From a bacterium (GTDB taxonomy: Bacteria; Patescibacteriota; Microgenomatia; UBA1406; GWC2-37-13), in assembly GCA_021789865.1 (NCBI GenBank), contig JAJYIX010000004.1, positions 1-44,156 of the forward strand: DNA of 44,156 nt. Direction: 5' to 3'. The notes under the pieces were generated by a model that had not been told where the DNA came from, made no database searches, and saw only the letters and a list, made by a program, of their open reading frames with translations. Made by a program: the position numbers and the translations under genes. Shown here piece by piece: positions 1 through 21,213 of this stretch. Each line of letters opens with the position of its first letter. Within the stretch, counting starts at the first letter, position 1.

Positions 1-11
1 AGGGCGCAGCC

Positions 12-105
12 AGTCTGGACACGCTTAAAAAGTCATGCTTTAGATTGCTATAATAATCTTAAAAGATTCGAAAATATTTGATTAGTTTCTGTTTGGAAAT
101 CAAAC
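12..105 (+). repeat. Interspersed AGTCTGGAC repeat, copy 1 (partial)
   Basis: AGTCTGGAC at 12-20 is preceded by GGGCGCAGCC, exactly as in the copy near 4336. Downstream (CTTAAAAAGT, then AAAAGATTCGAA) it resembles the flank of the copy near 3255. It fills the gap after the HD-domain gene. The 5' half lies outside the window. Confidence 0.6.
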
Positions 106-786
106 TTAAATTGACATAGGTAAATGAGTTGAATGTTCGTTTAAAGCATCAACCAAAGCCATATGGAGGACTGGGTTATCTTCAAGAAGAACTTCTCTTT
201 GGATTATTCCCTCTTTAACTTGTCTTACTAATTCAGGAATTACATTTCTGATCGATCCATTCCCATATTTACTAGGGTTCTCTAAGGCGGCCACTAGAAC
301 ATCAGCAACTCTTAATATAGAAGGAAGAAAATATTTTCCTTGGTAAAGATTTTCACGTTTAATATCTTGAAAAGGAGTTTCATGAAATAAGGCTATTCTT
401 ACAACATCTTCGGGAAATCGTAATCTTGCTAAAATCTCGGCGGAATATATGATGTGCCTTTTTCTATGTTCTTTTTCTACTTCTGAAGACTCTGAATTCG
501 ATGATGGATGCAAGATCCATAGAGGTACAAAAAGTTTTCCTATATCATGTTGTTCCGCTGCAATTTTTAAAATCTGAGAATTGACACCAAGCACGTCACT
601 CAGATAATTTGTCCACTCGGCAACTCGTGTCATGTGTGTTGAAGTAATAGGATCATAATCTTTCATGATTTTAAGTAAAGATTTTCTTTTAAAATCTAAA
701 GGAAAAAAAGGAAAATGATATAAGATATCAACTTTTTTTTGATTAACTTCAATTGGATTTGTCTTTAATCTGATATGCTCGGACAT
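106..786 (-). CDS. Degenerate HD-GYP-type metal phosphohydrolase
   Basis: A 226-residue protein of the HD/HD-GYP superfamily. Visible metal-ligand candidates are H51, the HD doublet H80-D81 in EQHDIGK, H111, H135 and D162 in ADVLVA. The GYP signature expected after the HHE segment is missing (the protein has FHETPFQD), so cyclic-di-GMP phosphodiesterase activity is doubtful; a general HD phosphohydrolase or signalling role is safer. No membrane segment or sensor domain is seen. A TATAAT on the minus strand near 817-822 leaves a leader of about 30 bases. It stands alone, bracketed by copies 1 and 2 of the interspersed repeat. Confidence 0.75.
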   Translation of the reverse strand: MSEHIRLKTNPIEVNQKKVDILYHFPFFPLDFKRKSLLKIMKDYDPITSTHMTRVAEWTNYLSDVLGVNSQILKIAAEQHDIGKLFVPLWILHPSSNSESSEVEKEHRKRHIIYSAEILARLRFPEDVVRIALFHETPFQDIKRENLYQGKYFLPSILRVADVLVAALENPSKYGNGSIRNVIPELVRQVKEGIIQREVLLEDNPVLHMALVDALNEHSTHLPMSI

Positions 787-857
787 ATAAAAAAATAGGC
801 CTAATCGAAGTCAATTATAGCTTATTTGCCATAGGTCTTAAATTATGAGAATAAAAA

Positions 858-953
858 ATTCTAACCTCCTCCATCAGTCTGGACATTGATAGTATAGAGC
901 GTTAGGGCAATCTATCTAAAATAAAATACAACGGTAATTAAGTCTCTTAATTT
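858..953 (+). repeat. Interspersed repeat, copy 2
   Basis: The core at 858-884 has the form ATTCTAAC-N10-AGTCTGGAC. Similarity to copy 3 continues for about 70 more bases (ATTGATAGTATAGAGCG, then AATTAAG...TTTTAGT). CTAAC in the core and GTTAG at 901-905 form a short inverted repeat. It lies between the divergent HD and hydrolase genes. Confidence 0.7.
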
Positions 954-973
954 TAGTTTAAATCTTCCTATGA

Positions 974-979
974 TATAAT
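974..979 (+). promoter_or_regulatory. -10 box of the hydrolase gene
   Basis: A perfect TATAAT six bases before the in-frame ATT at 986. It limits how far upstream the hydrolase start can be. No convincing -35 box was identified. Confidence 0.45.
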
Positions 980-985
980 AAAACA

Positions 986-1711
986 ATTAAAGATATAGAA
1001 TTTATTGTTGATGAAATTAAATTAAAAGGAAACCTTTTCTATCCAAAAAAAATATTAGATAAAAATCCCGGTATTTTATTTATACATGGTTGGACAAGCG
1101 AAAAGAAGAGAAACTATCAGTATGCAGAAGCTCTTATTAAACTAGGTTTTATCGTAATGGTATTTGATATGGGAGGTCATGGAATAAGTGAGGGAGACAT
1201 AAATACCCGAACTCCTAAAGAATTTTTAAAAGACTGTATTGCTGCTTATGACTATTTTTCTACAGTAAATGGAATTGATAAACATAATATAAACATCGTT
1301 GGTAGTAGTTTCGGATGCTATTTAGGTACTATTCTTACATCAAAAAGAAATGTTAAAAATATAGTATTACGAGTTCCTGCAGATTATGCAGATGATACAT
1401 TTGAAAAACCAAAAATGGGTAATGCAGGTGAGAATGATAAAGTTTTTACCTGGAGATTATTACCAAAAAAATATAATGAAGTATATGCATATAAAACATT
1501 ACATGAATTTACCGGAGAAATTTTAATAATTGAATCAGAAAAGGATGCCGTTGTTCCCCATCAATCTATACAAAATTATATAAATGCAGTTAAGGATAAA
1601 AGTAAATTAACCCATATTGTGGTCAAAGGAGCTCCTCATAGTATAAAACCTGGTCCTTTCAAAGACGAGATTACAAAAATAATCGTTAAATGGTTTGGAA
1701 ATAAGTTCTAA
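986..1711 (+). CDS. Alpha/beta hydrolase (start codon non-canonical)
   Basis: A serine hydrolase of the alpha/beta fold. The first ATG is at 1157, but the frame is open back to 974 and the upstream part encodes the expected first strands and the oxyanion-hole motif (ILFIHGWTSE at about 1073-1102), so 1157 is internal. Counting from 1157, the nucleophile is S51 in GSSFG, the acid D130 in SEKDAVVPH and the base H161 in GAPHS, so the triad is complete. No in-frame ATG, GTG or TTG exists upstream. A TATAAT at 974-979 predicts a transcript start near 986, where the in-frame codon is ATT. Either a rare leaderless ATT start is used or the 5' end is damaged. The stop codon lies inside repeat copy 3. 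Confidence 0.7.
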   Translation: MKDIEFIVDEIKLKGNLFYPKKILDKNPGILFIHGWTSEKKRNYQYAEALIKLGFIVMVFDMGGHGISEGDINTRTPKEFLKDCIAAYDYFSTVNGIDKHNINIVGSSFGCYLGTILTSKRNVKNIVLRVPADYADDTFEKPKMGNAGENDKVFTWRLLPKKYNEVYAYKTLHEFTGEILIIESEKDAVVPHQSIQNYINAVKDKSKLTHIVVKGAPHSIKPGPFKDEITKIIVKWFGNKF

Positions 1712-1804
1712 CGTCCTTCACCAGTCTGGACAATGATAGTTTAGAGCGTCAAAATAATCTAAAGTAATATAATATGCTTCGGCAATTAAGCTTCTTATTT
1801 TTAG
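1705..1804 (+). repeat. Interspersed repeat, copy 3
   Basis: The core at 1705-1731 is GTTCTAAC-N10-AGTCTGGAC, followed by AATGATAGTTTAGAGCG and further similarity to copy 2 through TTTTAGT. It supplies the stop codon of the upstream hydrolase (TAA at 1709-1711) and reaches the stop codon of the convergent transporter (1801-1803). Confidence 0.75.
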
Positions 1805-2703
1805 TGTTTTTCAATTTTAAGAATCTGAGTCGTAAATCCAGAGATGATAATTAAAAATACTCCAAACCACTGTATCGGTTCTAATGATTCTTTTAAGAAT
1901 ACTATTGCCATTAAAGCCACCAATACAGGCGTAAGTGAAGACATCATTGTCATATAAGAAGCAGAGGCAATTTTTAATGTCCTATTTAGGAATATCCATA
2001 GCAGAACGGCAAACAAGCTATTGAAGAAAACGTAGATGAACAGATGAATATCCAGTAGATTTTTCTGAAACAGAATCTTAGTTGCGGTTGGAAAGATTGG
2101 AGAAATCCATATTGCTCCAAATAATATTGGGAGGCCTGAGATTGGCCGCAAAAAAGACACTAAATCACTATCAATTTTGTGATTTTTTAATATTTTCCTG
2201 ACGAGTACATTCCCAGTAGACCATGATAAACAACCTAATAGAATAAGCAAGTCTCCTACATGTGGTTCGGTTAATTTGCCTTTGGTTATAAGGAATAGTG
2301 TCCCAATCATAATAGTTAAAATAGTTATTATTTTGGATGTAGTCATTTTTTCTTTTAAGAGTATCCAAGCAAGTAATGTCGTTGTGACTGTCGAGAATTG
2401 GATAAGAAACGCAGCGTTAATTGCAGTTGTTAAAGAAATACCCGCGTTACTAAAAACACCACCTAATCCATTATGTACAGCACTTGCAAATATAAGTAAA
2501 GCTAAAAATGGTCCTAATAATTCTTTAAGTTTATTTCGTTTAAAAGTAAATATATACAAAGTAATCATTACCGAAGCAACCAAACCCGACTGGACTGTAA
2601 ATGGGATCACTTCAGCACCTTTAATAAACGCGAGTTTGCTTACAAAAATCTGAACAGCCCAAAAGAAAGAAAATAAAAAGACATTTATAAACGGAGAATC
2701 CAT
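1801..2703 (-). CDS. EamA/DMT-superfamily transporter
   Basis: A 300-residue integral membrane protein with about ten hydrophobic segments arranged as two similar five-helix halves, the usual EamA (RhaT/YdcZ-like) architecture and length. Family members export or import small metabolites; the substrate cannot be told from sequence. In the first half the stretch INAAFLIQFSTVTTTLLAWI and in the second YMTMMSSLTPVLVALMAI correspond to the conserved helix pairs. It is monocistronic, between repeat copies 3 and 4. Confidence 0.85.
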   Translation of the reverse strand: MDSPFINVFLFSFFWAVQIFVSKLAFIKGAEVIPFTVQSGLVASVMITLYIFTFKRNKLKELLGPFLALLIFASAVHNGLGGVFSNAGISLTTAINAAFLIQFSTVTTTLLAWILLKEKMTTSKIITILTIMIGTLFLITKGKLTEPHVGDLLILLGCLSWSTGNVLVRKILKNHKIDSDLVSFLRPISGLPILFGAIWISPIFPTATKILFQKNLLDIHLFIYVFFNSLFAVLLWIFLNRTLKIASASYMTMMSSLTPVLVALMAIVFLKESLEPIQWFGVFLIIISGFTTQILKIEKH

Positions 2704-2817
2704 ATATTTAGGAAATTATATAAGTTTTTTAAGAAAAAAGGTAGTTTCGTTAAGTGTTATGATGAATATCTATCTATAAAATTTAAGTAATTTTAAGGTC
2801 AATTTTGTGCGTAAAAG

Positions 2818-2879
2818 GTTCTAACGTCCTCTACTAGTCTGGACACTTCGGCAAGCTCAGTGCAAGCCAAGAAAACTTC
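2818..2879 (+). repeat. Interspersed repeat, copy 4
   Basis: The core at 2818-2844 (GTTCTAAC-N10-AGTCTGGAC) is followed by CACTTCGGCAAGCTCAGTGC, a GC-rich tail common in intergenic repeats of metagenomic genomes. It runs to the start codon of the GIY-YIG gene. Confidence 0.7.
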
Positions 2880-3194
2880 ATGGAAAAACAAGATAATTGG
2901 TACGTATATTTGCTTCTTTGCGATAATAAAACTTATTATGTTGGTATAACAAATAATCTCACTTTAAGAATAAAAAATCATCGCGATAAAAATTCATTAT
3001 TCACTTTAAGGTTTAATAAGATCAAGTTAGTTTATTGTGAAAAATATGAGAATAAATATCAGGCGGCTAGAAGAGAGGGACAACTGAAAGGTTGGTCAAG
3101 AGCAAAGAAGCAAATGCTTATACATGGCACTTTAGGCATAAATACTTGCACTAAGATTGCCGAAGAAATCCTGGGAGAAGAGAACCTCAAGTGA
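2880..3194 (+). CDS. GIY-YIG nuclease superfamily protein
   Basis: A 104-residue single-domain protein of the UPF0213/YhbQ-like GIY-YIG family. The VYL and YYVGI segments (residues 9-11 and 19-23) form the GIY-YIG pair. R30 and E66 in the AARREGQLKGW segment are the expected catalytic arginine and glutamate. Such stand-alone proteins are proposed DNA-processing nucleases, but their biological role is mostly unknown. No Shine-Dalgarno sequence is visible, since the start follows repeat copy 4 directly. Confidence 0.85.
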   Translation: MEKQDNWYVYLLLCDNKTYYVGITNNLTLRIKNHRDKNSLFTLRFNKIKLVYCEKYENKYQAARREGQLKGWSRAKKQMLIHGTLGINTCTKIAEEILGEENLK

Positions 3195-3204
3195 GGCTTG
3201 TGGT

Positions 3205-3330
3205 GAGCGAGTTCTAAATATAATTATAGAACGAGCCGAACCAAATCCTCCCCTCTGGACATTGTATAGGCAAACTTAAAAAGTGATATTTTGGCTCTTC
3301 ATATCAACATAAAAAGGTTCGAACCTTGTG
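3205..3330 (+). repeat. Interspersed repeat, diverged copy 5
   Basis: A degenerate copy: GTTCTAAATATAATTATAGAAC forms its own small inverted repeat at about 3210-3232, and CTCTGGACATTG lies near 3253-3264. The flank CTTAAAAAGTGATATTTTG resembles copy 1. It fills the gap between the convergent GIY-YIG and transglutaminase-like genes. Confidence 0.45.
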
Positions 3331-4224
3331 TTAAATGTTGACATCAATTGGTCCTTTTGGAGAATAGCTTCTTACCTTATTCGATATTTGGAGATTTTTA
3401 TTACTATTGTATATTTGGAATACTTTGTCAAAATCAATTTTATCTTTTGATGTAGTAAACGCTATATTATTGATAAGCGTAATTTCTTCTTTAGATCTTT
3501 CATTAATATTTTTAAAAGGATCGTCAATAAAATCGGTATAATCCCAGGCAAGTAATTCTATTTTATTTAAAGCAGCTAGGTCTCTTATAACATCTGCTTT
3601 AATAAACCAAAAACCTTTTACGCCTATATCTTTTACTCCCAACAAATCAGAGTTTATTTTATTTTCTAATGCTAGTAACCATGCTTTTCCTGCAACTATA
3701 AATTTATTCCTAGGAATATCTATAGTATCGAAGTCTATTTGATATTTTCTTACTTCTTCTTTACCTAATTCACTATCAACTAATTTCCATTTTTTATTCT
3801 TCTTATCAAAATATTCGCAAACCCAATGATCCGAAAACCAGTCGTGGTGAAAATAATCAGCAAATCCACAACGGACACGTGCTGGTATGTTTTGATGTCT
3901 TAAAATAGAACAAGTCAATAATGCAAAATCCCTACATGTGCCAATAAATCTTTCTTTAGGTTTTCTTACAACGGATAATAGCTGATTATTGCAATTAATA
4001 ATAATTTCAAGGATTTTTTCAACATATCTTGTATTTGGTTGAAGTTTTTTATCACTTGGAACTTTAAAACCATAAAATTCTTTAGTATCTTCTTGATGAA
4101 CTATTAAATTATGAACAATTTTTGATATTTCAATAATTGATTCGGGTAAATTATCAAAAAGGTTTGAATATTTTCCAGGAGCGCTATATTTACTTTGTTC
4201 AATATAAAAGTCAAGTTCATCCAT
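3331..4224 (-). CDS. Transglutaminase-like (cysteine-protease fold) protein, paralogue A
   Basis: A 297-residue protein with a transglutaminase-core catalytic triad: C97 in GTCRDFALL, H133 in SDHWVCEYF and D150 in WKLVDSEL. No signal peptide or membrane helix is visible, so a cytoplasmic peptidase or amidase-like role is possible; the substrate is unknown. It aligns without gaps along its whole length to the protein encoded at 5331-6224, about 72% identical by hand count (215 of 297). The two copies are in the same orientation about 1.1 kb apart with a membrane protein between them, which indicates a recent duplication with both triads kept. Confidence 0.8.
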   Translation of the reverse strand: MDELDFYIEQSKYSAPGKYSNLFDNLPESIIEISKIVHNLIVHQEDTKEFYGFKVPSDKKLQPNTRYVEKILEIIINCNNQLLSVVRKPKERFIGTCRDFALLTCSILRHQNIPARVRCGFADYFHHDWFSDHWVCEYFDKKNKKWKLVDSELGKEEVRKYQIDFDTIDIPRNKFIVAGKAWLLALENKINSDLLGVKDIGVKGFWFIKADVIRDLAALNKIELLAWDYTDFIDDPFKNINERSKEEITLINNIAFTTSKDKIDFDKVFQIYNSNKNLQISNKVRSYSPKGPIDVNI

Positions 4225-4275
4225 GTAATAATTATAACAATATATTATTTATTACTTATAATTTGTACATAAAAA

Positions 4276-4344
4276 GTTCTAACATCCTCCACCAGTCTGG
4301 ACCATCCTTCGCTGAGGCTACGGAAGGGCGCAGCCAGTCTGGAC
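4276..4344 (+). repeat. Interspersed repeat, copies 6 and 7 (tandem AGTCTGGAC)
   Basis: The core at 4276-4302 (GTTCTAAC-N10-AGTCTGGAC) is followed by a CCTTCG...CGGAAGG stem-loop and a second CCAGTCTGGAC ending at 4344. The second copy has the same GGGCGCAGCC prefix as copy 1. Confidence 0.7.
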
Positions 4345-4545
4345 CAAGCACAGACTTGTCGGCTGGCTCCGCCACCCATTCTGTAGGTAAATCTAAATAA
4401 ACTTTATAATCTGTAAAGAGAGCCTGAGTTGGGTCCGACCGTAGGCAGGTGCAGAACTGTGAAGCTTATAGAAATAAAAAGAATTCAAAACGGCGTGAAT
4501 AATATCTTATATGAAATCGCGGGAAAACTACTTTAAAAACAATAT
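4345..4545. other. Non-coding, GC-rich repeat debris
   Basis: No gene is supported here. The stretch contains short GC-rich segments (GTCGGCTGGCTCCGCC; GGGTCCGACCGTAGGCAGG) unlike the AT-rich surroundings, probably repeat remnants. It ends at the promoter of the next gene. Confidence 0.4.
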
Positions 4546-4551
4546 TATAAT
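4546..4551 (+). promoter_or_regulatory. -10 box of the membrane-protein gene
   Basis: TATAAT nine bases before the ATG at 4561, with no Shine-Dalgarno sequence between them. This fits a leaderless or near-leaderless transcript. Confidence 0.5.
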
Positions 4552-4560
4552 TTTGTTATC

Positions 4561-5289
4561 ATGATCAATATGGATCAGCAAGATATTATCCAAGAGCCGT
4601 CAATCCAACAGCCGATAAATACCACATCGCATCCCATGGTTGCTTTACAATTAATATTAGGAGCGATAATAATTTTATTTTTTGGTCTAGTTGTCGGGTA
4701 TTATATAGGAAGTCGACAAATATCAAAGCAATCTCTAATAAATAATTATTCAACCAAAACTGTTTCCCCATCTATTATTCCGACGAAAGAGGTGGTCTCT
4801 CCCACTACGGTATCTGCAATCGTTGTACCGTCTAATGATACATGTGTCATCGAAAAAAATTCCATCTTAGCAACAGTAAAAACTTTTGAAGATTTTCAAG
4901 AAAAGAAAGATCCCATAAATGTTTTAAATTTATTTACTCCTCCTCAAGCAACCCAAGACATAAGTGACTATCAAAACTTAAGCGGCAAAGACGACAATAT
5001 TGGACCAAGACTTTATAATAATGTTTCAACCAGCTATAACACTTTATCTTACAAAATTATTCAAGAACCACGATATATAACCAATAATAATTGTAGTGTA
5101 GTTGTTGAAGAGCAAAGAAGTAATTACGGAGGACCAGCAAACCCACAATATTTACCCGCTGCAACTCTAGACTTTAATTTAATTCTTATAAAACAAAACA
5201 AAGTATGGATGATCGATCAATATCTGAGTCAAGACCCTAAAATCAAAAAAGGAAAGTACGAAGGATTTTTAATGGAATATTCTTATTAG
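4561..5289 (+). CDS. Single-pass membrane protein, unknown function
   Basis: A 242-residue protein with a short N-terminal cytoplasmic segment, one membrane helix at about residues 25-46 (LQLILGAIIILFFGLVVGYY), a Ser/Thr/Pro-rich linker and an extracytoplasmic domain of about 150 residues. That domain ends in a pattern (LDFNLILIKQNKVWMIDQYL) reminiscent of NTF2/SnoaL-like or DUF4878-type small domains; this resemblance is weak. A second ATG at 4570 is possible, but 4561 is preferred from the -10 spacing. It lies between the two transglutaminase-like paralogues on the opposite strand. Confidence 0.65.
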   Translation: MINMDQQDIIQEPSIQQPINTTSHPMVALQLILGAIIILFFGLVVGYYIGSRQISKQSLINNYSTKTVSPSIIPTKEVVSPTTVSAIVVPSNDTCVIEKNSILATVKTFEDFQEKKDPINVLNLFTPPQATQDISDYQNLSGKDDNIGPRLYNNVSTSYNTLSYKIIQEPRYITNNNCSVVVEEQRSNYGGPANPQYLPAATLDFNLILIKQNKVWMIDQYLSQDPKIKKGKYEGFLMEYSY

Positions 5290-5330: not shown

Positions 5331-6224
5331 TCAAATTTGAATATCGATCGGCCCCTTCAGAGAATAGCTTTTGATCATTTTCAATATTTGAAGATTCTTA
5401 TTTTTTTTATATATCCGCAATGCCTCATCCAAATTAATTTCTTCTTTTGAGGTAATAGCGGCAATATTGCTTATAAGCTCAATTTCATCTCCGGATCGGT
5501 CACCGATATTTTTGAACGGGTCATCAATATATTCTGTATAATCCCAAGGAAGTAATTCAATTCTATTTAAAGCCGCTAGATCCCTGACAACATCAGCCTT
5601 AATAAACCAATAACCTTTGACTTTTATTTCTTTTACTCCCAAAATGTCAGGATTAATTTTGTTTCTTAAAGCCATTAACCAAGCTTTGCCCGCCACGATA
5701 AATCTGTCTCTAGGAATATTAGTTATTTCAAAATCAATTTTATATTTTTGTTTTTCTCCTTGACCTAATTCTGAATCTACCAATTTCCATTTGGAGTCTT
5801 TTTTATCAAAGTATTCACACACCCAATGATCAGAATACCAATCGTCATGAAAATAATCTGCAAAACCGCACCGTACGCGTGCCGGTATTTTTTTATGTCT
5901 TAAAATTGAACAAGTCAATAAAGCAAAATCTCTACATGTCCCTATAAACCTATCTTGTGGTTTTCTTTTTATTGATAAAGGCCGATTGTCGTTGGCGATA
6001 ATCGTTTCGAGAATGTTTTCAATATATCTGGTATTGGGTTGGAGTTTTTTATTATCTGGAATTTTGAATTTATAGAATTCCTCCGTATCTTCTTGATGGA
6101 CTATTAAGCCATGAACAATTTCTGATATTTCTTTAATTAATTCAGGTAAATTATCAAAATAGTTTGAATATTTTCCAGGAGAGCTATATTTACTTTGTTC
6201 TATGTAATATATCAATCCGTTCAT
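5331..6224 (-). CDS. Transglutaminase-like protein, paralogue B
   Basis: A 297-residue paralogue of the protein at 3331-4224 with the same triad positions (C97, H133, D150), the same termini (SKYS-PGKYS near the N-terminus, GPID at the C-terminus) and no gaps. Conservation is strongest at 91-150 around the triad and weakest at about 260-290. It converges on the membrane-protein gene, with a small AAACTT-A-AAGTTT palindrome at 5296-5308 between them. Function is unknown; protease, peptide N-glycanase-like and amidase activities are all compatible with the fold. Confidence 0.8.
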   Translation of the reverse strand: MNGLIYYIEQSKYSSPGKYSNYFDNLPELIKEISEIVHGLIVHQEDTEEFYKFKIPDNKKLQPNTRYIENILETIIANDNRPLSIKRKPQDRFIGTCRDFALLTCSILRHKKIPARVRCGFADYFHDDWYSDHWVCEYFDKKDSKWKLVDSELGQGEKQKYKIDFEITNIPRDRFIVAGKAWLMALRNKINPDILGVKEIKVKGYWFIKADVVRDLAALNRIELLPWDYTEYIDDPFKNIGDRSGDEIELISNIAAITSKEEINLDEALRIYKKNKNLQILKMIKSYSLKGPIDIQI

Positions 6225-6517: not shown

Positions 6518-7477
6518 AATCATGTTGAAAAGATAACCCGTGAATATTATTCCAACAGCCAATACGGCAATATAGATTGCCAGTAACTTTGGCTTTAAGA
6601 CTTTCCTCAGTATGACCATTTCCGGAAACGACAAGGCGGTCACCGACATCATAAAAGCAAGCGCGGTTCCGATGGGTAATCCATTATCGATCAGCGATTT
6701 GACGATAGGGATTGTACCGGCAGCATTCGAATAAAGCGGAACGCCGACAAGAACAGCGATTGGAACAGCTAAAATATTTCCTTTTCCGGCAATAGCGGCC
6801 AAGAAATCATGAGGCGCATATCCATGTATGAAAGCTCCTATCCCGACACCCAAGAGCACGAAGGGAAAAACTTTTTTGATCAAATCGGCGGTATATAAAT
6901 ATGCATCGTATAATCGCATCTTGAAACCAGATTTATTGTCTACTTTATTTTGTCCGACTTTGATTTTCCAGACATAGTCTTCGACTAAGGATTCAAGTCT
7001 TAATTTGCCCAAAATAAATCCGACGACGACAGCGATAGTGACACCGGACGCAATATAAATAAGCGCCACCATTGGCCCGAACAATCCGAAAAGAAGCACT
7101 GCCGCTACCTCATTCACCATCGGCGCGGAAATAAGATAGGAAAAAGTCACCCCCAAAGGAACACCCGATTCGACCAGGCCGATAAAAAGCGGTACTGCTG
7201 AGCACGAACAAAAAGGGGTGACGATACCAATAAGAGCGGCCAGTATGTTGCCGATTATCTCAAGTCTGTTGGATAAAAGTTTTTTTGTTTTCTCAGGCGG
7301 TAGAAAGGAGCGGATAAAAGAAACAATAAAAATAATAACGGCAAGCAGAATAAATATTTTGATGCTGTCAAAAACAAAAAAATTTACCGCTCCAGCAACG
7401 ACACTTTTTCTTGCCAATTTTAAGAGCGAATAGCTGAACCAATCAGAAAACAGTTGGACCGGGAAAAACAAATCCAT
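6512..7477 (-). CDS. ArsP/DUF318-family permease
   Basis: A 321-residue polytopic membrane protein of the predicted permease family (DUF318; ArsP and SO_0444-type metal(loid) efflux). The diagnostic TPFCSCSAVP motif is present (C90 and C92), and about eight hydrophobic segments are visible in two related halves (a second GVPLYSNAAGT-type segment lies in the C-terminal half). Family members export methylated or trivalent arsenicals, or other soft metals. It is the last gene of an arsR-thioredoxin-permease operon, 5 bases after the thioredoxin stop. The CxC-type regulator upstream supports a thiophilic metal or metalloid substrate. Confidence 0.85.
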   Translation of the reverse strand: MDLFFPVQLFSDWFSYSLLKLARKSVVAGAVNFFVFDSIKIFILLAVIIFIVSFIRSFLPPEKTKKLLSNRLEIIGNILAALIGIVTPFCSCSAVPLFIGLVESGVPLGVTFSYLISAPMVNEVAAVLLFGLFGPMVALIYIASGVTIAVVVGFILGKLRLESLVEDYVWKIKVGQNKVDNKSGFKMRLYDAYLYTADLIKKVFPFVLLGVGIGAFIHGYAPHDFLAAIAGKGNILAVPIAVLVGVPLYSNAAGTIPIVKSLIDNGLPIGTALAFMMSVTALSFPEMVILRKVLKPKLLAIYIAVLAVGIIFTGYLFNMIF

Positions 7478-7482
7478 AGATA

Positions 7483-7719
7483 TTATTTACTTTTTATCAA
7501 ACTCTTTATCTTTTCGATATCAGGAGTAAATCCGATCATGACCGGTTTACCATCAATCGCCAAGACGGGAGATTGCATGACTCCCATTTCGACTATTTTT
7601 GAAATGTCTGTTACGTATTCGACATTTTCCTTCAATCCCATTTCGACCACGGCCTTTTTGGTCATCTCATAAAGTTTTTCGCAAGTGTGACAACCCGACC
7701 CCAGTACTTGAATCTTCAT
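7483..7719 (-). CDS. Small thioredoxin-fold protein (redox-active disulfide protein 2 type)
   Basis: A 78-residue minimal thioredoxin-like protein with a CxxC active site (C10-H-T-C13 in GSGCHTCEKL) and a cis-proline region (MQSPVLAIDG). Proteins of this size are often encoded beside DUF318 permeases and may hand metal or reducing equivalents to them. Its start overlaps the arsR stop by 4 bases (ATGA), implying translational coupling. Confidence 0.85.
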   Translation of the reverse strand: MKIQVLGSGCHTCEKLYEMTKKAVVEMGLKENVEYVTDISKIVEMGVMQSPVLAIDGKPVMIGFTPDIEKIKSLIKSK

Positions 7720-8018
7720 ATTTTTAACAACGAATTGATAATACCCCTGCCTCTTTTTGTCAGGGAATAATAGACTTTCAAACCTTCTTTCTTATTTTCC
7801 ACTACCCCGGCGTCTTTCAAGTCTTTCAAATGGTGTGAGATCAAGCTTTGCGACATGTCCACATGCTCCATCAATTCGCATACGCAATGCCTGTTTGAAT
7901 TCAAAATGCAAAGAAGTTTCAGCCGGCTTTCTTCCGATACGATCTTGAGGAGTGAGGATAACGAAACGACTCGCTTCGATTCGGTGCTTTTCTTAGAACA
8001 ACATTTATATGAATTCAT
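7716..8018 (-). CDS. ArsR/SmtB-family metal-sensing repressor
   Basis: A winged-helix repressor of about 100 residues. The ELCVCDL-type metal site appears as HCVCEL (C47 and C49, numbering from the upstream ATG at 8024), the classical alpha-3 arsenic/antimony/lead sensor site, and an N-terminal CC pair (C8, C9) could be an additional ligand. The recognition helix is SQSLISHHLKDLKDAGVV. Two ATGs are possible, at 8024 and 8018. The promoter's -10 box ends only 2 bases before 8024, so the transcript should start near 8020; 8018 is therefore chosen as a leaderless start. It probably represses its own operon. Confidence 0.85.
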   Translation of the reverse strand: MNSYKCCSKKSTESKRVVSLSSLLKIVSEESRLKLLCILNSNRHCVCELMEHVDMSQSLISHHLKDLKDAGVVENKKEGLKVYYSLTKRGRGIINSLLKI

Positions 8019-15314: not shown

Positions 15315-15953
15315 TTATCTCGTGTGAGTATAGACCGTCATGCGTGCCGACATTCCATTTTTGATGCTTGGATAGGCGGTCGAATCGAATTTGGCATAGA
15401 CGGTAAATTGTTGTGTCGCCCGTTCGGTCGAGGTCGAGAAGGAAAATACCGCGGTGTTGGCGCTTGGTGAAATTTCGTCAACATAACCCCAAAATGTCTT
15501 CCCGGGCAAGGCGTCGACCGTGAACGAAACCACTTGACCGACTTTTATTTCATCTAATCCTTTATTTTCATCGATCGTTCCGGCCACTCTCATGTTGACC
15601 GGCCTAATCATTTGAATAAGCTGGGTCGCTTGGTTGACGACGGAACCGGTCAGGTCAGGTGCTGAGATGATGAGTCCGCTTGTTTGAGCTCTTAATGTCT
15701 CCGATCCGACGACGGCCAGGGTGTCTCCGGTTTGAACTGTTTGGCCTTCCTTGACGTCTATCTCCTGGACTTTGCCTGAACTTAAAGGAGATATGGTAAT
15801 CACGGGCGTTTGAATAAGAGAATTGTCGATGTATACTCGGCCGGTTGTCATTTGAAAAAATAAATATCCGCCGATAAAAAGGACCAACAAGACGACTCCT
15901 CCGAAAAATCTCATAAAGTTTTTGTTTTTGAACAAGGAAAATTTGTTTTTCAT
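15315..15953 (-). CDS. HlyD-type membrane-fusion adaptor, short
   Basis: A 212-residue protein with one N-terminal membrane helix (about residues 15-32), a biotinyl-lipoyl-like domain (GKVQEIDVKEGQTVQTGDTL) and a beta-barrel region ending in an HlyD_3-type segment (GMSARMTVYT). It lacks the long coiled-coil hairpin of outer-membrane-channel adaptors. It overlaps the longer adaptor gene by 4 bases and probably serves the divergently encoded ABC exporter. Confidence 0.8.
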   Translation of the reverse strand: MKNKFSLFKNKNFMRFFGGVVLLVLFIGGYLFFQMTTGRVYIDNSLIQTPVITISPLSSGKVQEIDVKEGQTVQTGDTLAVVGSETLRAQTSGLIISAPDLTGSVVNQATQLIQMIRPVNMRVAGTIDENKGLDEIKVGQVVSFTVDALPGKTFWGYVDEISPSANTAVFSFSTSTERATQQFTVYAKFDSTAYPSIKNGMSARMTVYTHTR

Positions 15954-17047
15954 AACATCTGATATTTCAACGCCGAGATAACCTTCGGATCGATGATTAT
16001 TTTGTCATTCTGAGAAAGCCCATTTTTGATTTCGATATCCTGTCCGTGAATTTTTCCAACGGTTACCTTTTTCAAAGACGGCTTACCGTTGTCGTCAATC
16101 CAGATATATTTTCCGCCAAGAACAGTCCAAGCCGGAACTAAAGCGACATTTTGGGAATTGGTATTGATAATTGCCGTCCCCGACATGTCCAGCTTGGCCA
16201 GCTTTTTCAAATCGTCCGAAACGACATCGACTTGGTAAACTTGTTCACCGGACGCCAAAGTGACTTTAGACGGATAGATCTGAGTGATTACGCCTTCGAC
16301 TTTTTTCGGCAGACCGTCGACAGACAATAGCACCTTGCCTCCAACCGATACGTAGTATATATATTCGGCGGGGACGTCGGCGCGAAAGACCATCGTCGAC
16401 GGATCGGCGACCGTAAAAGACGTCGTCGTCGTCACGTTTTGATTTGGCACGGTGACGTCTTCGTGGGTGACGATGCCATTGAGAGGTGACGTCAACCTGG
16501 CCAATTGTAAAGCGTAGTTGGCCAATTCGACATTGATGACCGAATTATCCAGATTGGCCTGATTTTCGTCGATGATTCTTTTGACGATATCGTTTATCGC
16601 ATTTTGTTCCGTGGTTCCCGAAATACCGGCCGCGTTGAAAGTATTGTAAGGATAAGTCTGGGCAGCCTGAAGATAATTGTTTTGCGAATTGGCGATCTGT
16701 TGATCGAATGTGTCTCTGGTTGATCTGTATATGTTTAAATAATAGGTAAGTTCTTTTTGTAATGTGTAGGTGTCTAAAGAGGCGATAGTCTCGCCCTGGT
16801 AGACTTTATCCCCTTCCTTTAAAGGAAGATATACCAGTTTCCCGCTGGTCTGGAAATGAAGAGTGGCCTGATCCTGGGCGGTCACCGAACCGTCGGCCGT
16901 GATGGTTGAGCTGATAAATTTTACCGAAGCCTCGGTTGTCGGCCTGACATCAGACCCATTCAAAACGGAAAGATGTTGACGTAAATAGAGAAAAAACCCG
17001 CCGACGAGAATCAAGGCCGAAAAAATGAGTATAATATTTTTTTTCAT
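15950..17047 (-). CDS. HlyD/RND-type periplasmic adaptor subunit
   Basis: A 365-residue adaptor with a signal anchor (MKKNIILIFSALILVGGFFL), a split lipoyl domain (GKLVYLPLKEGDKVYQGETI and SPLNGIVTHEDVTVPN) around a short helical hairpin (about residues 110-170), then beta-barrel and membrane-proximal domains (LDMSGTAIINTNSQNVALVP). It resembles MacA-type adaptors used by ABC exporters. Its last codons overlap the short adaptor gene, and its start meets the MarR stop. Two adaptors side by side suggest a hetero-oligomeric ring or alternative partners. Confidence 0.85.
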   Translation of the reverse strand: MKKNIILIFSALILVGGFFLYLRQHLSVLNGSDVRPTTEASVKFISSTITADGSVTAQDQATLHFQTSGKLVYLPLKEGDKVYQGETIASLDTYTLQKELTYYLNIYRSTRDTFDQQIANSQNNYLQAAQTYPYNTFNAAGISGTTEQNAINDIVKRIIDENQANLDNSVINVELANYALQLARLTSPLNGIVTHEDVTVPNQNVTTTTSFTVADPSTMVFRADVPAEYIYYVSVGGKVLLSVDGLPKKVEGVITQIYPSKVTLASGEQVYQVDVVSDDLKKLAKLDMSGTAIINTNSQNVALVPAWTVLGGKYIWIDDNGKPSLKKVTVGKIHGQDIEIKNGLSQNDKIIIDPKVISALKYQML

Positions 17048-17478
17048 TATTTTTTTTCCAGTTTGTTTTGTAATGTTTTTAAAATCGACATCAACTCTCG
17101 TCTTTCCTTTTCAGATAAATAGGATAACACCTTTTCCAACTTTTTTCTTCTTTCTTTTAATGCTTCCTCGAGTAATGCGCGACCTTTTTCAGTCAATTTG
17201 ACAAGGACAATCCGCCGGTCCTTCCTGTCTTCTTCCCTTTCGACAAGCTTTTGTTCGGATAGCTTTTTTAAAAGACTTGTCGCCGATGGCAATTCGATAT
17301 GAAAATTGTCGGCGATATCGCTCATCGATACCCGTTTCTGAAATTTGACAAACACCAACGCTTGAATCTGGAGAATGCTCAAATGGGTCAATTTTTTCGT
17401 AAACGACATCTCCCCCTTAAGCAGGCGAAAAGTCCTGAACATCATTTCGATCAAACTGTCGGTATTGTCATTTTTCAT
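17047..17478 (-). CDS. MarR-family transcriptional regulator
   Basis: A 143-residue winged-helix regulator. The DNA-binding part is MSDIADNFHIELPSATSLLKKL followed by the wing EREEDRKDRRIVLVKLTEKG, and the flanking helices form the dimer interface. It heads the adaptor operon and is divergent from the ABC exporter genes across a 73-base gap holding two inverted repeats, so it probably controls both directions in response to an exported compound. Confidence 0.9.
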   Translation of the reverse strand: MKNDNTDSLIEMMFRTFRLLKGEMSFTKKLTHLSILQIQALVFVKFQKRVSMSDIADNFHIELPSATSLLKKLSEQKLVEREEDRKDRRIVLVKLTEKGRALLEEALKERRKKLEKVLSYLSEKERRELMSILKTLQNKLEKK

Positions 17479-17484
17479 AAATAC

Positions 17485-17528
17485 TTAGATAATCTAACTA
17501 TTTTACAGTATAATATATTTATATTATA
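17485..17528. promoter_or_regulatory. Two palindromes in the marR / ABC divergent region
   Basis: TTAGAT-A-ATCTAA (17485-17497) and TATAATATA-TT-TATATTATA (17509-17528) are perfect inverted repeats in a 73-base gap between divergent genes. They are candidate MarR operators and overlap likely -10 boxes. AT-richness makes chance palindromes possible. Confidence 0.45.
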
Positions 17529-17551
17529 ATGTCAATTGACTTTTATAAAAA

Positions 17552-19291
17552 ATGATAAAACTACTTCGATATCTCAAACCCTATAAGTGGCCGTTGATAG
17601 CGGTCATTTTGCTGGCTATCGGCCAATCGGTCGCCAATCTATATCTCCCAACCCTTATGTCCAATATTGTCACAAACGGAATCGCCAAATTCGATACCGC
17701 CTACATTTGGCGCACGGGTATATGGATGGTTCTGGTGACATTCGGAGGTGTTGTCTGTGCCATTCTCGGAATTTACTACGCCTCCCAGGTGGCGGTCGGG
17801 ATGACCAAACTCATCCGCGCTGCTCTTTTCGACAAAGTCCAACTTTTTTCCCTCAACGAATTTGATCAGGTTTCAACCGCTTCCTTAATCACAAGGACGA
17901 CCAATGACACGACGCAGATTCAACAGGTGATGGTAATGATCCTGAATCTTTTCGTGACCGCTCCGATCACTCTGGTAGTCGGCGTAATTTTGGCCCTAAA
18001 CCAGGACGTCGAGCTGTCTTGGGTCCTGATCGCAATTCTACCTTTTTTGGTGGGAACGATCGTATTTCTTTTAATAAAAGCCGTTCCCCTATTTACAAAG
18101 ATGCAGGTCAAGCTCGATAAACTGAATCTCATTCTTGACGAGAATCTTCAAGGAGTCCGGGTCATCCGTGCTTTTGACAGGATAAAACACGAAGAAAAAC
18201 GTTTTGACGACGCCAATATCGAGGTCACGAATCTGGCTATAACGGTCAATCAATTGATATCGGTCATGATGCCGGTCATGATGTTCTTGATGAATATTTC
18301 CAGTCTCGCCATCATTTGGTTCGGCAGCCTTCGGGTCGCTGCTGGGACTCTGGATATCGGGGCAATGTTTGCTTTTTTACAATACGCTATTCAAATTCTT
18401 TTATCGGTACTTTTTGTCGCTATCGTATTCATCACTATTCCCCGCGCCGAAGCGTCGGCCAAAAGAATCCAAGAAGTGATGGATATCGACCCTGACATAT
18501 CCGATCCGAAAAAGCCCGAAAAGGGGGGAAAAATCAAGGGCCATGTTGAATTCAGGAACGTCACATTCAGTTATCACGGTGCCGAAAAACCGGCACTGGA
18601 GAATATTTCTTTTGTTGCTGCGCCGGGTAAAGTGACCGCAATAATCGGTGGGACCGGATCGGGCAAATCAACACTCGTAAACCTTATTCCCCGTTTTTAC
18701 GACGTTGAAAGCGGAGCCGTGTTGGTTGACAAAATCGATGTCAGAAAAATGACTCAGGCGGCCTTACGGGAAAAAATTGGATTAGTTCCTCAAAAAGCGA
18801 TTCTTTTTGCCGGTTCGATCAAAGACAATCTCCGTTTTGGCAAGGAAAACGCAACCGATAAAGAAATGAAACGCGCCGTGGAGATTGCCCAGGCATCGGA
18901 ATTTATCGAAAAAATGCCCGAAAAAATGGATTCAGTGATCGCCCAAGGCGGTACCAACGTCTCAGGAGGTCAGAAGCAGCGGCTATCAATCGCCCGAGCG
19001 CTGATTAGAAAACCGGAAATATACGTTTTCGACGATACCTTTTCCGCCTTGGATTTTAAGACCGACGCCAAGCTACGGATGGCTTTGAAATCCGAGACTA
19101 AAAATGCAACCGTCTTAATCGTCGCTCAAAGAGTCAGCACGGTAATCGATGCCGACCAGATAATTGTTCTCGATGAAGGACGAATCGTCGGAATCGGCGT
19201 ACACAAAAATCTTATGAAGTCCTGCAAAGTATATGCAGACATAGTTTCGTCGCAGTTGTCGCCGTCGGAAATTGCCAAGGAGTCAGTATGA
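17552..19291 (+). CDS. ABC exporter half-transporter, degenerate-site subunit
   Basis: A 579-residue fusion of a six-helix ABC exporter membrane domain (about 1-320) and an ATPase domain. The Walker A is GGTGSGKS (about 366-373) and the signature VSGGQ is canonical. Walker B is followed by Asp instead of the catalytic Glu (VFDDTFSALD), and the switch histidine is Gln (VAQRVST). These losses mark the degenerate-site half of heterodimeric exporters such as TM287 of TM287/288 or LmrC. Partner: the next gene, overlapping by 4 bases. Expected role: export of lipids, drugs or peptides. Confidence 0.9.
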   Translation: MIKLLRYLKPYKWPLIAVILLAIGQSVANLYLPTLMSNIVTNGIAKFDTAYIWRTGIWMVLVTFGGVVCAILGIYYASQVAVGMTKLIRAALFDKVQLFSLNEFDQVSTASLITRTTNDTTQIQQVMVMILNLFVTAPITLVVGVILALNQDVELSWVLIAILPFLVGTIVFLLIKAVPLFTKMQVKLDKLNLILDENLQGVRVIRAFDRIKHEEKRFDDANIEVTNLAITVNQLISVMMPVMMFLMNISSLAIIWFGSLRVAAGTLDIGAMFAFLQYAIQILLSVLFVAIVFITIPRAEASAKRIQEVMDIDPDISDPKKPEKGGKIKGHVEFRNVTFSYHGAEKPALENISFVAAPGKVTAIIGGTGSGKSTLVNLIPRFYDVESGAVLVDKIDVRKMTQAALREKIGLVPQKAILFAGSIKDNLRFGKENATDKEMKRAVEIAQASEFIEKMPEKMDSVIAQGGTNVSGGQKQRLSIARALIRKPEIYVFDDTFSALDFKTDAKLRMALKSETKNATVLIVAQRVSTVIDADQIIVLDEGRIVGIGVHKNLMKSCKVYADIVSSQLSPSEIAKESV

Positions 19292-21213
19292 ACGAAAAAA
19301 ATAAAACAAAAAAGGAACAACTACCCGGGGGCCCGATGAATCGAGGCGGCTTTGGGGCAATGGGTCAGCCGGTCGAAAAAGCCAAAGATTTTGGCGGTAC
19401 CTTGAAAAGACTTCTAAGCTACTTTTTTCCGGAAAAAATATTGCTTTATACAATCGTCGGGGCCGCCGTCCTCGGGACCGTGTTCAATATCGTTGGGCCA
19501 AAGATTTTGGGACTGGCGACTACAAAATTATTTGACGACCTGATCGCCAGTTTCATCGTCCAGATAAAAAATTATCAAATTAAACAAGCGTTGATTGCGA
19601 ATCCGACGCTGGCGCTTCACACCGCCCCCGTCCCGGGAATTGAATTCGGATATATCGGACATATCGCTATGATTCTTTTGATCCTCTATGTTGTCAGCGC
19701 CATTTTTACTTTTATTCAACAATATTTAATGGTCGGGTTGGCTCAACGGACCATATACAAGATGAGGCGTCAGGTCGACGAAAAATTGTCGCGCTTGCCA
19801 TTAAAATACTTCGACGGCCGGACTCATGGAGAAATTCTCAGCCGGGCTGTAAATGACATGGACAACATCAGCTCAACCCTTCAACAAAGTGTGTCGCAGC
19901 TTATCACCTCGGTTGTCAGTATCGTCGGAGTCCTGATAATGATGCTCTCGATCAGTCTTATATTGACGGTTATCGTACTGGCGACTTTGCCACTAAGCAT
20001 CTTCGTAGTGACAATAATCGCCGGACGATCACAAGACTACTTTCGTCGCCAGCAAAAATCTTTGGGTGACTTGAACGGTCATGTTGAAGAAATGTACAGC
20101 GGTCATAAAATAGTCAAAGCCTTCGGTCATGAAAAAAAGGCCACGAGTCAATTTGAAGTTTTGAATGAAAGTCTTTACGACGCCGGATGGAAAGCCCAGT
20201 TTGTTTCCGGCGTCATCATGCCTTTGATGAGATTTGTCGGTAATCTCGGATATGCCCTGGTCGCTGTCGTGGGAGGACTGTTGGTGACCCAAAATACCAT
20301 TTCCCTTGGTGACGTCCAGGCCTTTATCCAATATTCCTCTCAGTTTACATTTCCAATCACGCAACTCGCCAATATCGCCAACATCATCCAATCGGCTATA
20401 GCATCGGCCGAACGAGTCTTCGAGCTTTTGGATGAAGAAGAGGAAATTCCGGAAGCAAAAAAACCATTTGTGATAAACAAAGAAAAAGGTGCTGTAAAAT
20501 TCGATCACGTCCAATTCGGTTACAGTAAAGACAAAATACTTATGAAAGACATGAACTTCAGCGTCAAGCCGGGTCAAATGATTGCCGTCGTCGGTCCGAC
20601 CGGAGCCGGTAAAACTACCTTAGTCAACTTGTTGATGAGATTTTACGAAGTCCAAGGCGGAAGAATACTCGTCGATGACGTCGACATAACCAAGCTCAAA
20701 CGGGGAGCTCTTCGGAGAATGTTCGGGATGGTCCTCCAAGATACCTGGTTATTTCACGGAACCTTAAGGGATAATATCGCCTATGGACGAGAAGATGCGA
20801 CCGAAGAGCAAATCGTCGCCGCCTCAAAAGCGGCCTACGCCGACCATTTTATCAGAACTTTACCCGAAGGATACGGAACGGTGCTAAACGAAGACGCGAC
20901 AAATATTTCCCAAGGACAAAAGCAACTTTTGACAATTGCCCGTGCATTTCTGGCGGATCCAGAAATTTTGATACTAGACGAAGCGACCAGTAGCGTCGAC
21001 ACCAGGACGGAACTTCTTATCCAGGACGCGATGAGCCGTCTGATGAAAGGTCGAACCAACTTTGTCATCGCCCACAGGCTTTCGACCATCCGCGATGCCG
21101 ACCTCATCCTCGTCATGAATCACGGAACGATAATCGAAAAAGGTACCCACAAGGAACTTTTAGCCAAAAAAGGTTTTTATGCCGATTTGTATAACAGCCA
21201 ATTCAGGGATTAG
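19288..21213 (+). CDS. ABC exporter half-transporter, catalytic subunit
   Basis: A 641-residue exporter half with an extra N-terminal cytoplasmic segment and a long first extracytoplasmic loop. The ATPase domain has GPTGAGKT (about 437-444), the catalytic Glu (LILDEATSSVD) and the switch His (IAHRLST), but its signature is altered to ISQGQ. In heterodimeric exporters the partner with the altered signature and intact Walker B pairs exactly this way, giving one working ATP site. It converges on a hypothetical gene with a 4-base overlap. Confidence 0.9.
   Translation: MNEKNKTKKEQLPGGPMNRGGFGAMGQPVEKAKDFGGTLKRLLSYFFPEKILLYTIVGAAVLGTVFNIVGPKILGLATTKLFDDLIASFIVQIKNYQIKQALIANPTLALHTAPVPGIEFGYIGHIAMILLILYVVSAIFTFIQQYLMVGLAQRTIYKMRRQVDEKLSRLPLKYFDGRTHGEILSRAVNDMDNISSTLQQSVSQLITSVVSIVGVLIMMLSISLILTVIVLATLPLSIFVVTIIAGRSQDYFRRQQKSLGDLNGHVEEMYSGHKIVKAFGHEKKATSQFEVLNESLYDAGWKAQFVSGVIMPLMRFVGNLGYALVAVVGGLLVTQNTISLGDVQAFIQYSSQFTFPITQLANIANIIQSAIASAERVFELLDEEEEIPEAKKPFVINKEKGAVKFDHVQFGYSKDKILMKDMNFSVKPGQMIAVVGPTGAGKTTLVNLLMRFYEVQGGRILVDDVDITKLKRGALRRMFGMVLQDTWLFHGTLRDNIAYGREDATEEQIVAASKAAYADHFIRTLPEGYGTVLNEDATNISQGQKQLLTIARAFLADPEILILDEATSSVDTRTELLIQDAMSRLMKGRTNFVIAHRLSTIRDADLILVMNHGTIIEKGTHKELLAKKGFYADLYNSQFRD

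Follow-up and report, generated by a model that had tools for sequence, protein, structure and literature searches.

Comparative sequence evidence for a tRNA-Tyr-anchored array of mostly single-gene cassettes in a Microgenomatia genome

Tycheposons and other tRNA-integrating islands place their cargo at tRNA 3′ ends, encode tyrosine recombinases and form larger units than those of the cassette-like array described here, which lies at the start of a 44,156-nucleotide contig (JAJYIX010000004.1 of assembly GCA_021789865.1, positions 1 to 44,156, forward strand; hereafter the window) from a bacterium of the family GWC2-37-13, class Microgenomatia. Integron arrays share with it single-gene units of diverse cargo, sites in one orientation that contain the unit boundary, and a primary site at one end. 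The present array, however, lacks an IntI in cis and attC folding, has a tRNA gene as its primary site, carries cassette genes in both orientations and has a core that varies with the tRNA used. The nearest anatomical precedent is the tandem ssrA islands of Dehalococcoides, together with CIME accretion, whose units are bounded by copies of an RNA-gene 3′ end, arise by insertion in the T-loop, have a conserved motif immediately before the repeat and are in some cases free of an integrase, but which are larger, 16 of them with a serine-recombinase module (PMC3146451), whereas the units here mostly hold one gene and no module. Acinetobacter plasmid dif (pdif) modules likewise consist of one or a few genes and are presumed to be mobilised in trans by a recombinase of the host, but are bounded by Xer sites on plasmids and not by tRNA ends (PMC13141974). 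Finally, the phage GIY-YIG homing endonuclease SegB lies beside tRNA genes, cuts within them at RAWTSGAAC and drives tRNA–segB tandem repeats (PMC13096335), and resembles what we find in its position by tRNA genes, in the tandem tRNA–nuclease repeats and in a target that can be read as T-loop; it differs in being a phage enzyme for which no cassette arrays are described, and the proteins here are UPF0213-like. Our literature search found no described integron in Patescibacteria (the candidate phyla radiation, CPR) and nothing on tRNA-anchored cassette arrays in these bacteria, and what appears to be new is the combination of single-gene units without any module, a change of target tRNA between families and a tie to GIY-YIG mini-elements.

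Repeats on the plus strand lie at positions 11, 858, 1705, 2818, 3244, 4276 and 4335 of the window, with one gene between neighbours, much as a sequence-only reading had proposed: every copy that it listed is present and on the plus strand, the copies are enriched over shuffles, and the gaps hold, one each, genes for an HD protein, an alpha/beta hydrolase, an EamA transporter, a GIY-YIG protein and a transglutaminase-like protein. The sites are of two types. A type II site spans 47 nt and consists of a left arm (ACTAAATTTGTGCGTAAAAGGTTCTAACGTCCTCCACCAG, ending ..AAAAGGTTCTAACGTCCTCCACCAG) followed by the core TCTGGAC, while a type I site simply repeats the 17 nt at the 3′ end of tRNA-Tyr. Type II sites are copy 2 (838–884, right arm to about 925; profile match 41.6 bits), copy 3 (1685–1731, right arm to about 1770; profile match), copy 4 (2798–2844; 43.2 bits) and copy 6 (4256–4302), the best-scoring of all (48.5 bits, E 8.5e-13), all on the plus strand, as is the type I copy 5 (AATCCTCCCCTCTGGAC, 3244–3260). 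The full-copy pattern TTCTAACnTCCTYYANYAGTCTGGAC is found at 859–884, 1706–1731, 2819–2844 and 4277–4302 (plus strand), and half copies, (C)AGTCTGGAC, lie on the same strand at 11–20 and 4335–4344. The first of these belongs to copy 1, whose right half (AGGGCGCAGCCAGTCTGGAC) occupies 1–20, and the second to half copy 7 (CAGTCTGGAC), which together with a hairpin spacer (CATCCTTCGCTGAGGCTACGGAAGGGCGCAGC) was read from the sequence at 4303–4344. With up to one mismatch, the window holds 7 occurrences of CAGTCTGGAC where 0.80 are expected, a count reached by none of 100 shuffles. Across the whole genome (1.07 Mb in 64 contigs, the window being contig C6) the 26-mer matches 4 times forward and never in reverse, the reversed-pattern control has no match, and a 47-position profile built from 30 copies matches 5 times, all within this array (C6:840–4302 and C12:23–58). 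The full repeat is thus confined to the array and not scattered over the genome. Copy 3 supplies the TAA stop codon of the hydrolase gene (GTTCTAAC, 1705–1712), as proposed. Two details were revised: the likeness of copies 2 and 3, put at about 95 bases, was measured as 81% over 62 nt, and the copy near 3253 that had been called diverged is in fact of the other type, type I.

Relatives that have the repeat also have GGTTCGAATCCTCCCCTCTGGAC, the 3′ end of tRNA-Tyr(GTA), upstream on the same strand, and the repeats of the window are copies or mimics of this tRNA end. Copy 5 differs at one position from the 3′-terminal 17 nt of the genome's own tRNA-Tyr and is exact to the tRNA-Tyr of several relatives. 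Type I 17-mers occur as 9 extra copies in arrays versus 0 in shuffles (522 kb); 8 of the 9 carry the host's own T-stem variant and 4 are exact. The genome's own tRNA-Tyr lies on the minus strand of another contig (C12:1623–1708), its 3′ side facing the contig end 1.6 kb away, with two more units in between (a DUF5678 gene plus an aspartyl-protease-like gene, and an NYN protein gene). The left half of copy 1 is the end of that contig (C12:1–58, minus strand): joined, the C12 end (..ATTCTAACGTCCTTCACTCTCCTTCGTCAAGGCTATGGA) and the C6 start make one hairpin-bearing repeat copy like the complete copies of genomes G017 and G060, with a hairpin of the same kind as that at 4303–4344. In genome G101, additionally, homologues of C12:2764–3681 lie beside tRNA-Tyr and homologues of window 15315–21213 on its other side. 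Because the two ends complete one copy and the synteny in G101 agrees, the two contigs are probably adjacent, the assembly having apparently broken the array inside a repeat.

The same repeat is present in named Candidatus Roizmanbacteria and Microgenomates records, with which the organism groups, and the profile matches at E ≤ 0.01 in 42 of 72 family genomes from 17 of 34 genera, the weak matches including chance ones. Most of the relatives' arrays lie behind tRNA-Tyr and on its strand. For 25 of the 37 strongest family matches a tRNA-Tyr is found on the contig within 20 kb, versus about 4% expected (binomial ∼1e-26), and the remainder are mostly near a contig end that faces the missing tRNA.

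Gene order in relatives is not stable. In about 30 of them the same repeats stand behind tRNA-Tyr with different genes, and units sit at different positions in different genomes. A DUF3147 cassette (93% amino acid identity) is preceded by an array repeat in G017 and directly by tRNA-Tyr in G014, its DNA homology beginning around the core TCTGGAC and ending inside the next site; since the homology begins at this core in both settings, we place the crossover there. The GIY-YIG cassette of the window stands directly behind tRNA-Tyr in G097 and, in part, in G005; in G097, as in the window, its end is a tRNA-end copy (AATCCTTCCCCCTGGAC). An NYN cassette recurs in G054 and G049 and a hydrolase in G060, and a GIY-YIG of G017 is found again in G048 (92%), other genera being involved. 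The notion of a cassette-like array therefore holds up, its unit ends coinciding with repeats and its units being shared at different positions, and the comparisons describe a tRNA-anchored cassette array that is real and, on an evolutionary scale, mobile. One could instead regard the array as an accretion of tandem islands, in which larger, integrase-bearing elements at tRNA-Tyr decayed to single genes between attR remnants. The type I copies, which resemble displaced tRNA ends, would agree with such decay, and so would the 15 Dehalococcoides tandem ssrA islands that have no integration module (PMC3146451), but neat single-gene units with the same ends recur across genera and no integrase lies in the arrays, which leaves this explanation improbable.

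Sites of the same general kind were also sought across the class, where 31 of 233 genomes match the profile at E ≤ 1e-4. Outside the order the matches cover the left arm alone and the core differs: GGAGC-type cores occur near tRNA-Asn, CAGC near tRNA-Gln, CTGC near tRNA-Trp and TCCGC near tRNA-Ser. Cores agree with the nearest upstream same-strand tRNA better than under permutation (p ≤ 5e-5 for all, p = 0.0012 for the non-Tyr cores, relatedness uncorrected). A stretch of about 85 bases that follows tRNA-Gln in G123 is found again, unchanged, after a repeat 1.2 kb further on. This suggests that the target tRNA changes between families and that the core follows the tRNA used. Viral contigs searched with the 26-mer and the left arm gave no match.

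If the array were an integron or the relic of one, its repeats would be attC sites whose integrase had been lost or lay elsewhere. In favour of this are the single-gene units, the resemblance of GTTCTAAC to an R″ box and the continuation of copy 2 to GTTAGGGC, and the sequence-only reading had compared the units to integron cassettes, pointing to attC-like CTAAC...GTTAG ends in copy 2. The GTTAG of copy 2 is absent from the other copies. The integron integrase profile TIGR02249 was never matched above its cut-off, the matches obtained being Xer proteins, and consensus folding of 30 aligned left arm plus core sites gave 0 conserved pairs (the right arm lying outside the alignment). The crossover falls outside the R′ box, and the core is a tRNA 3′ end that varies with the tRNA used. 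Because there is neither IntI nor attC pairing the array is not an integron; it resembles one in behaviour without being a member of the class, and we assign the integron explanation, already contradicted, a practically negligible likelihood.

We next consider which enzyme might act. Among 2116 open reading frames (ORFs) of array loci there is no recombinase save one Xer gene beside a weak repeat match, and the PF00589 matches of array genomes lie away from the arrays. No helper element with an integrase was found adjoining the arrays, whose units are att-flanked and integrase-free, and integrase loci outside the arrays are without the repeat arm. Since no recombinase belongs to the arrays, insertion would act in trans. 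Serine recombinases (PF00239) were rejected as the common enzyme, being absent from 8 of 26 array genomes.

On these grounds we propose that units of mostly one gene were added in succession at the tRNA-Tyr 3′ end, from the T-loop to the acceptor stem, and at earlier repeats. Each unit would begin just past the core TCTGGAC and end in a site, of type I or type II, that restores the core, so that the tRNA would stay intact. Genome G097 offers a possible trace of such an exchange: the 5′ acceptor strand of its tRNA-Tyr (CCAGGGG) is perfectly complementary to a displaced tRNA-end copy 0.4 kb downstream (CCCCTGG), and its pairing with the present 3′ end (CCTCTGG) is poorer, which fits an incoming cassette that swaps the tRNA end. 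What genome comparison provides is the anchoring at tRNA-Tyr, the unit boundaries, the same unit in different places and other tRNAs in other families, and we put the probability of the tRNA-anchored insertion model as a whole at about 0.7.

Our preferred start of the process would be a break in the T-loop motif of the tRNA by a SegB-like GIY-YIG nuclease of recurrent cassettes (window 2880–3194), followed by joining at the short core. Reversed, the SegB target reads GTTCSAWTY, which we take for a T-loop motif, a reading of our own. The motif is kept in 0 of 30 array copies, type II repeats having GTTCTAAC in its place, and its loss from the repeats fits a used, cut-resistant site. In 15 near-complete genomes 29 of 56 GIY-YIG genes have a tRNA gene no more than about 300 bp away, always on the same strand, compared with 13 of 331 control ORFs (4%) from four of these genomes (Fisher 1.6e-18). 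A single-domain GIY-YIG gene is the first gene behind the tRNA in ten loci, degraded or cut short in two of them. Of the GIY-YIG genes that stand upstream of a tRNA, seven have in front of them an exact repeat of its 5′ end, from base 1 onward and 12–31 nt long (Ser 31 nt, Gly 25, Asn 20, Gly 20, Ser 17, Asp 13 and Glu 12). Behind one unit of tRNA-Phe and GIY-YIG, 30 nt of the tRNA end recur exactly.

Such neighbourhoods may also be amplified. Locus L223 (G023:C2), positions 1–4646, consists of 13 identical 357-bp tandem units, each with the 5′ half of tRNA-Ser and a GIY-YIG gene, at a contig start, and in a congeneric species this unit likewise opens a contig (L224, G053:C1); the tandem units could be a real amplification or an assembly effect. 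If real, such copies show that tRNA regions amplify, and one may ask if segmental duplication and homologous recombination at tRNA genes would account for the arrays, with the repeats as tRNA debris and no dedicated mobility. Unrelated genes with identical ends, and a 47-nt arm plus core conserved between genera, speak against this, and we regard it as very improbable.

A more serious competitor of the GIY-YIG proposal is a tyrosine recombinase acting in trans, for example the single complete Xer of the genome, with the repeat serving as attP and the 3′ end of the tRNA as attB, in the manner of dif modules and XerCD. tRNA 3′ ends are classic targets of tyrosine integrases, the sites of the array lie in one orientation with a constant core, and a complete-type Xer gene is present in most family genomes. 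The dif modules also provide a known few-gene system that is mobilised in trans (PMC13141974). Beyond the dearth of recombinases in array loci, this explanation has against it that G006 has an array with no complete-type Xer gene detected and that no inverted-repeat core is seen. A search with the dif consensus gave about as many matches as its control, a background level that weighs neither way. Taken as a whole we find it doubtful. For the enzyme step alone, our tentative first choice is the GIY-YIG nuclease, held at somewhat under even odds, then a trans-acting tyrosine recombinase as a possible agent, and lastly something else as the least likely of the three.

Several observations weigh against the proposed tRNA-anchored insertion. 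The genome's own tRNA-Tyr ends in CCTGGAC and the window repeats in TCTGGAC, and the C12–C6 join is without sequence overlap. In G006 (L068) and G060 (L078) the array lies 5′ of tRNA-Tyr and reads away from it. The non-Tyr cores match their tRNA over 3–7 of 7 nt only, right arms are kept in only some units, and the left arm resembles the T-loop in part only, with a GGTTC-to-core spacing of 16 versus 11 nt. All genomes are assemblies, most of them fragmented, and the enzyme has been reached by inference only, the GIY-YIG protein of the window being a candidate mobility enzyme.

The five genes between the repeats encode an HD-domain protein of 226 amino acids (aa; 106–786, minus strand; PF01966, 6e-11), an alpha/beta hydrolase (about 990–1711, plus; PF00326/PF00561), an EamA-family transporter of 300 aa (1801–2703, minus; PF00892, 2.5e-30), the single-domain, UPF0213-like GIY-YIG nuclease of 104 aa (plus strand; PF01541, 4.5e-16) and a transglutaminase-like protein of 297 aa (3331–4224, minus; PF01841). 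The hydrolase gene has an ATG at 1157 with homology starting upstream of it, and its product is 58% identical to that of an array gene of G060; the GIY-YIG protein is nearest to the UPF0213 structures PDB 1zg2 and 1ywl, both named hypothetical. Behind the last repeat a degraded unit (4345–4550, plus strand) resembles by DNA alignment the stretch directly behind tRNA-Tyr on C12 and holds a GIY-YIG remnant at 4446–4547 (65% identity over 34 aa, tblastn). A second transglutaminase-like gene (5331–6224, minus), 72% identical to the first (blastp), may be an older cassette that has lost its repeat by decay. Across relatives the cargo includes EamA, NUDIX, HAD, TspO, cupin, ZIP, AbiEii, Fic, APH-like and Crp proteins, and units have mostly one gene, sometimes two or none. 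Geneless units of about 140 bp recur between the core and a type I copy (L071 9237–9405; L073 4415–4574 and 14818–14952; L132 8668–8804; L136 11291–11435; L074 6244–6405); several begin with an intrinsic-terminator-like hairpin, and such units may supply the tRNA with a new terminator.

As to tRNA-Tyr itself, the encoded CCA behind it varies with the unit that follows the core (G000, G012, G017 and G048 versus G014, G026 and G008), and insertion seems to switch this tail on or off. The gene, starting CCAGAGG or CCAGGGG, has the archaeal-type C1-G72 pair known from some of these bacteria (PMC5370408). In G006 the first array repeat and the promoter region of tRNA-Tyr overlap. Rfam scans of the window and four loci returned tRNA only, and a T-box suspected behind tRNA-Tyr was unsupported by them.

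Family genomes usually encode two proteins of the Xer kind, one that has every catalytic residue and one that is shorter and Xer-like, neither near the arrays. The shorter one is encoded at L011 1219–2079 (G000:C16) beside an S1-domain gene and has homologues of 288–290 aa in most family genomes; in this genome it appears to be without the catalytic Arg (GIKIGEL) and Tyr (STERFL) and is perhaps a non-catalytic partner of the complete Xer. At L189 (G026) a complete Xer gene (6816–7751) and tRNA-Leu (7838–7921) stand on the same strand, Xer being 87 bp behind the tRNA. In G010 (C2:65556–67364) and G044 (C1:885568–887361) the Xer integrase domain is split by an insert, probably an intein, within a frame of 736–760 aa.

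How the small genomes of Patescibacteria acquire genes is poorly understood. An array in about half of the genomes examined in one family, with hints of it across many of the class's families, would point to a gene-capture route of their own, with the predicted rule that the core follows the tRNA. The proposal also suggests what the numerous small GIY-YIG nucleases of these genomes may do, and would link phage SegB biology to bacterial chromosomes. A broader version, in which GIY-YIG mini-elements throughout the Microgenomates break the T-loop, tRNA-mimicking cassettes rejoin it and targets change via a core of 5–7 nt, is in our view unlikely to hold in full; if it did, these bacteria would possess an integron analogue without an integrase, anchored on essential tRNA genes.

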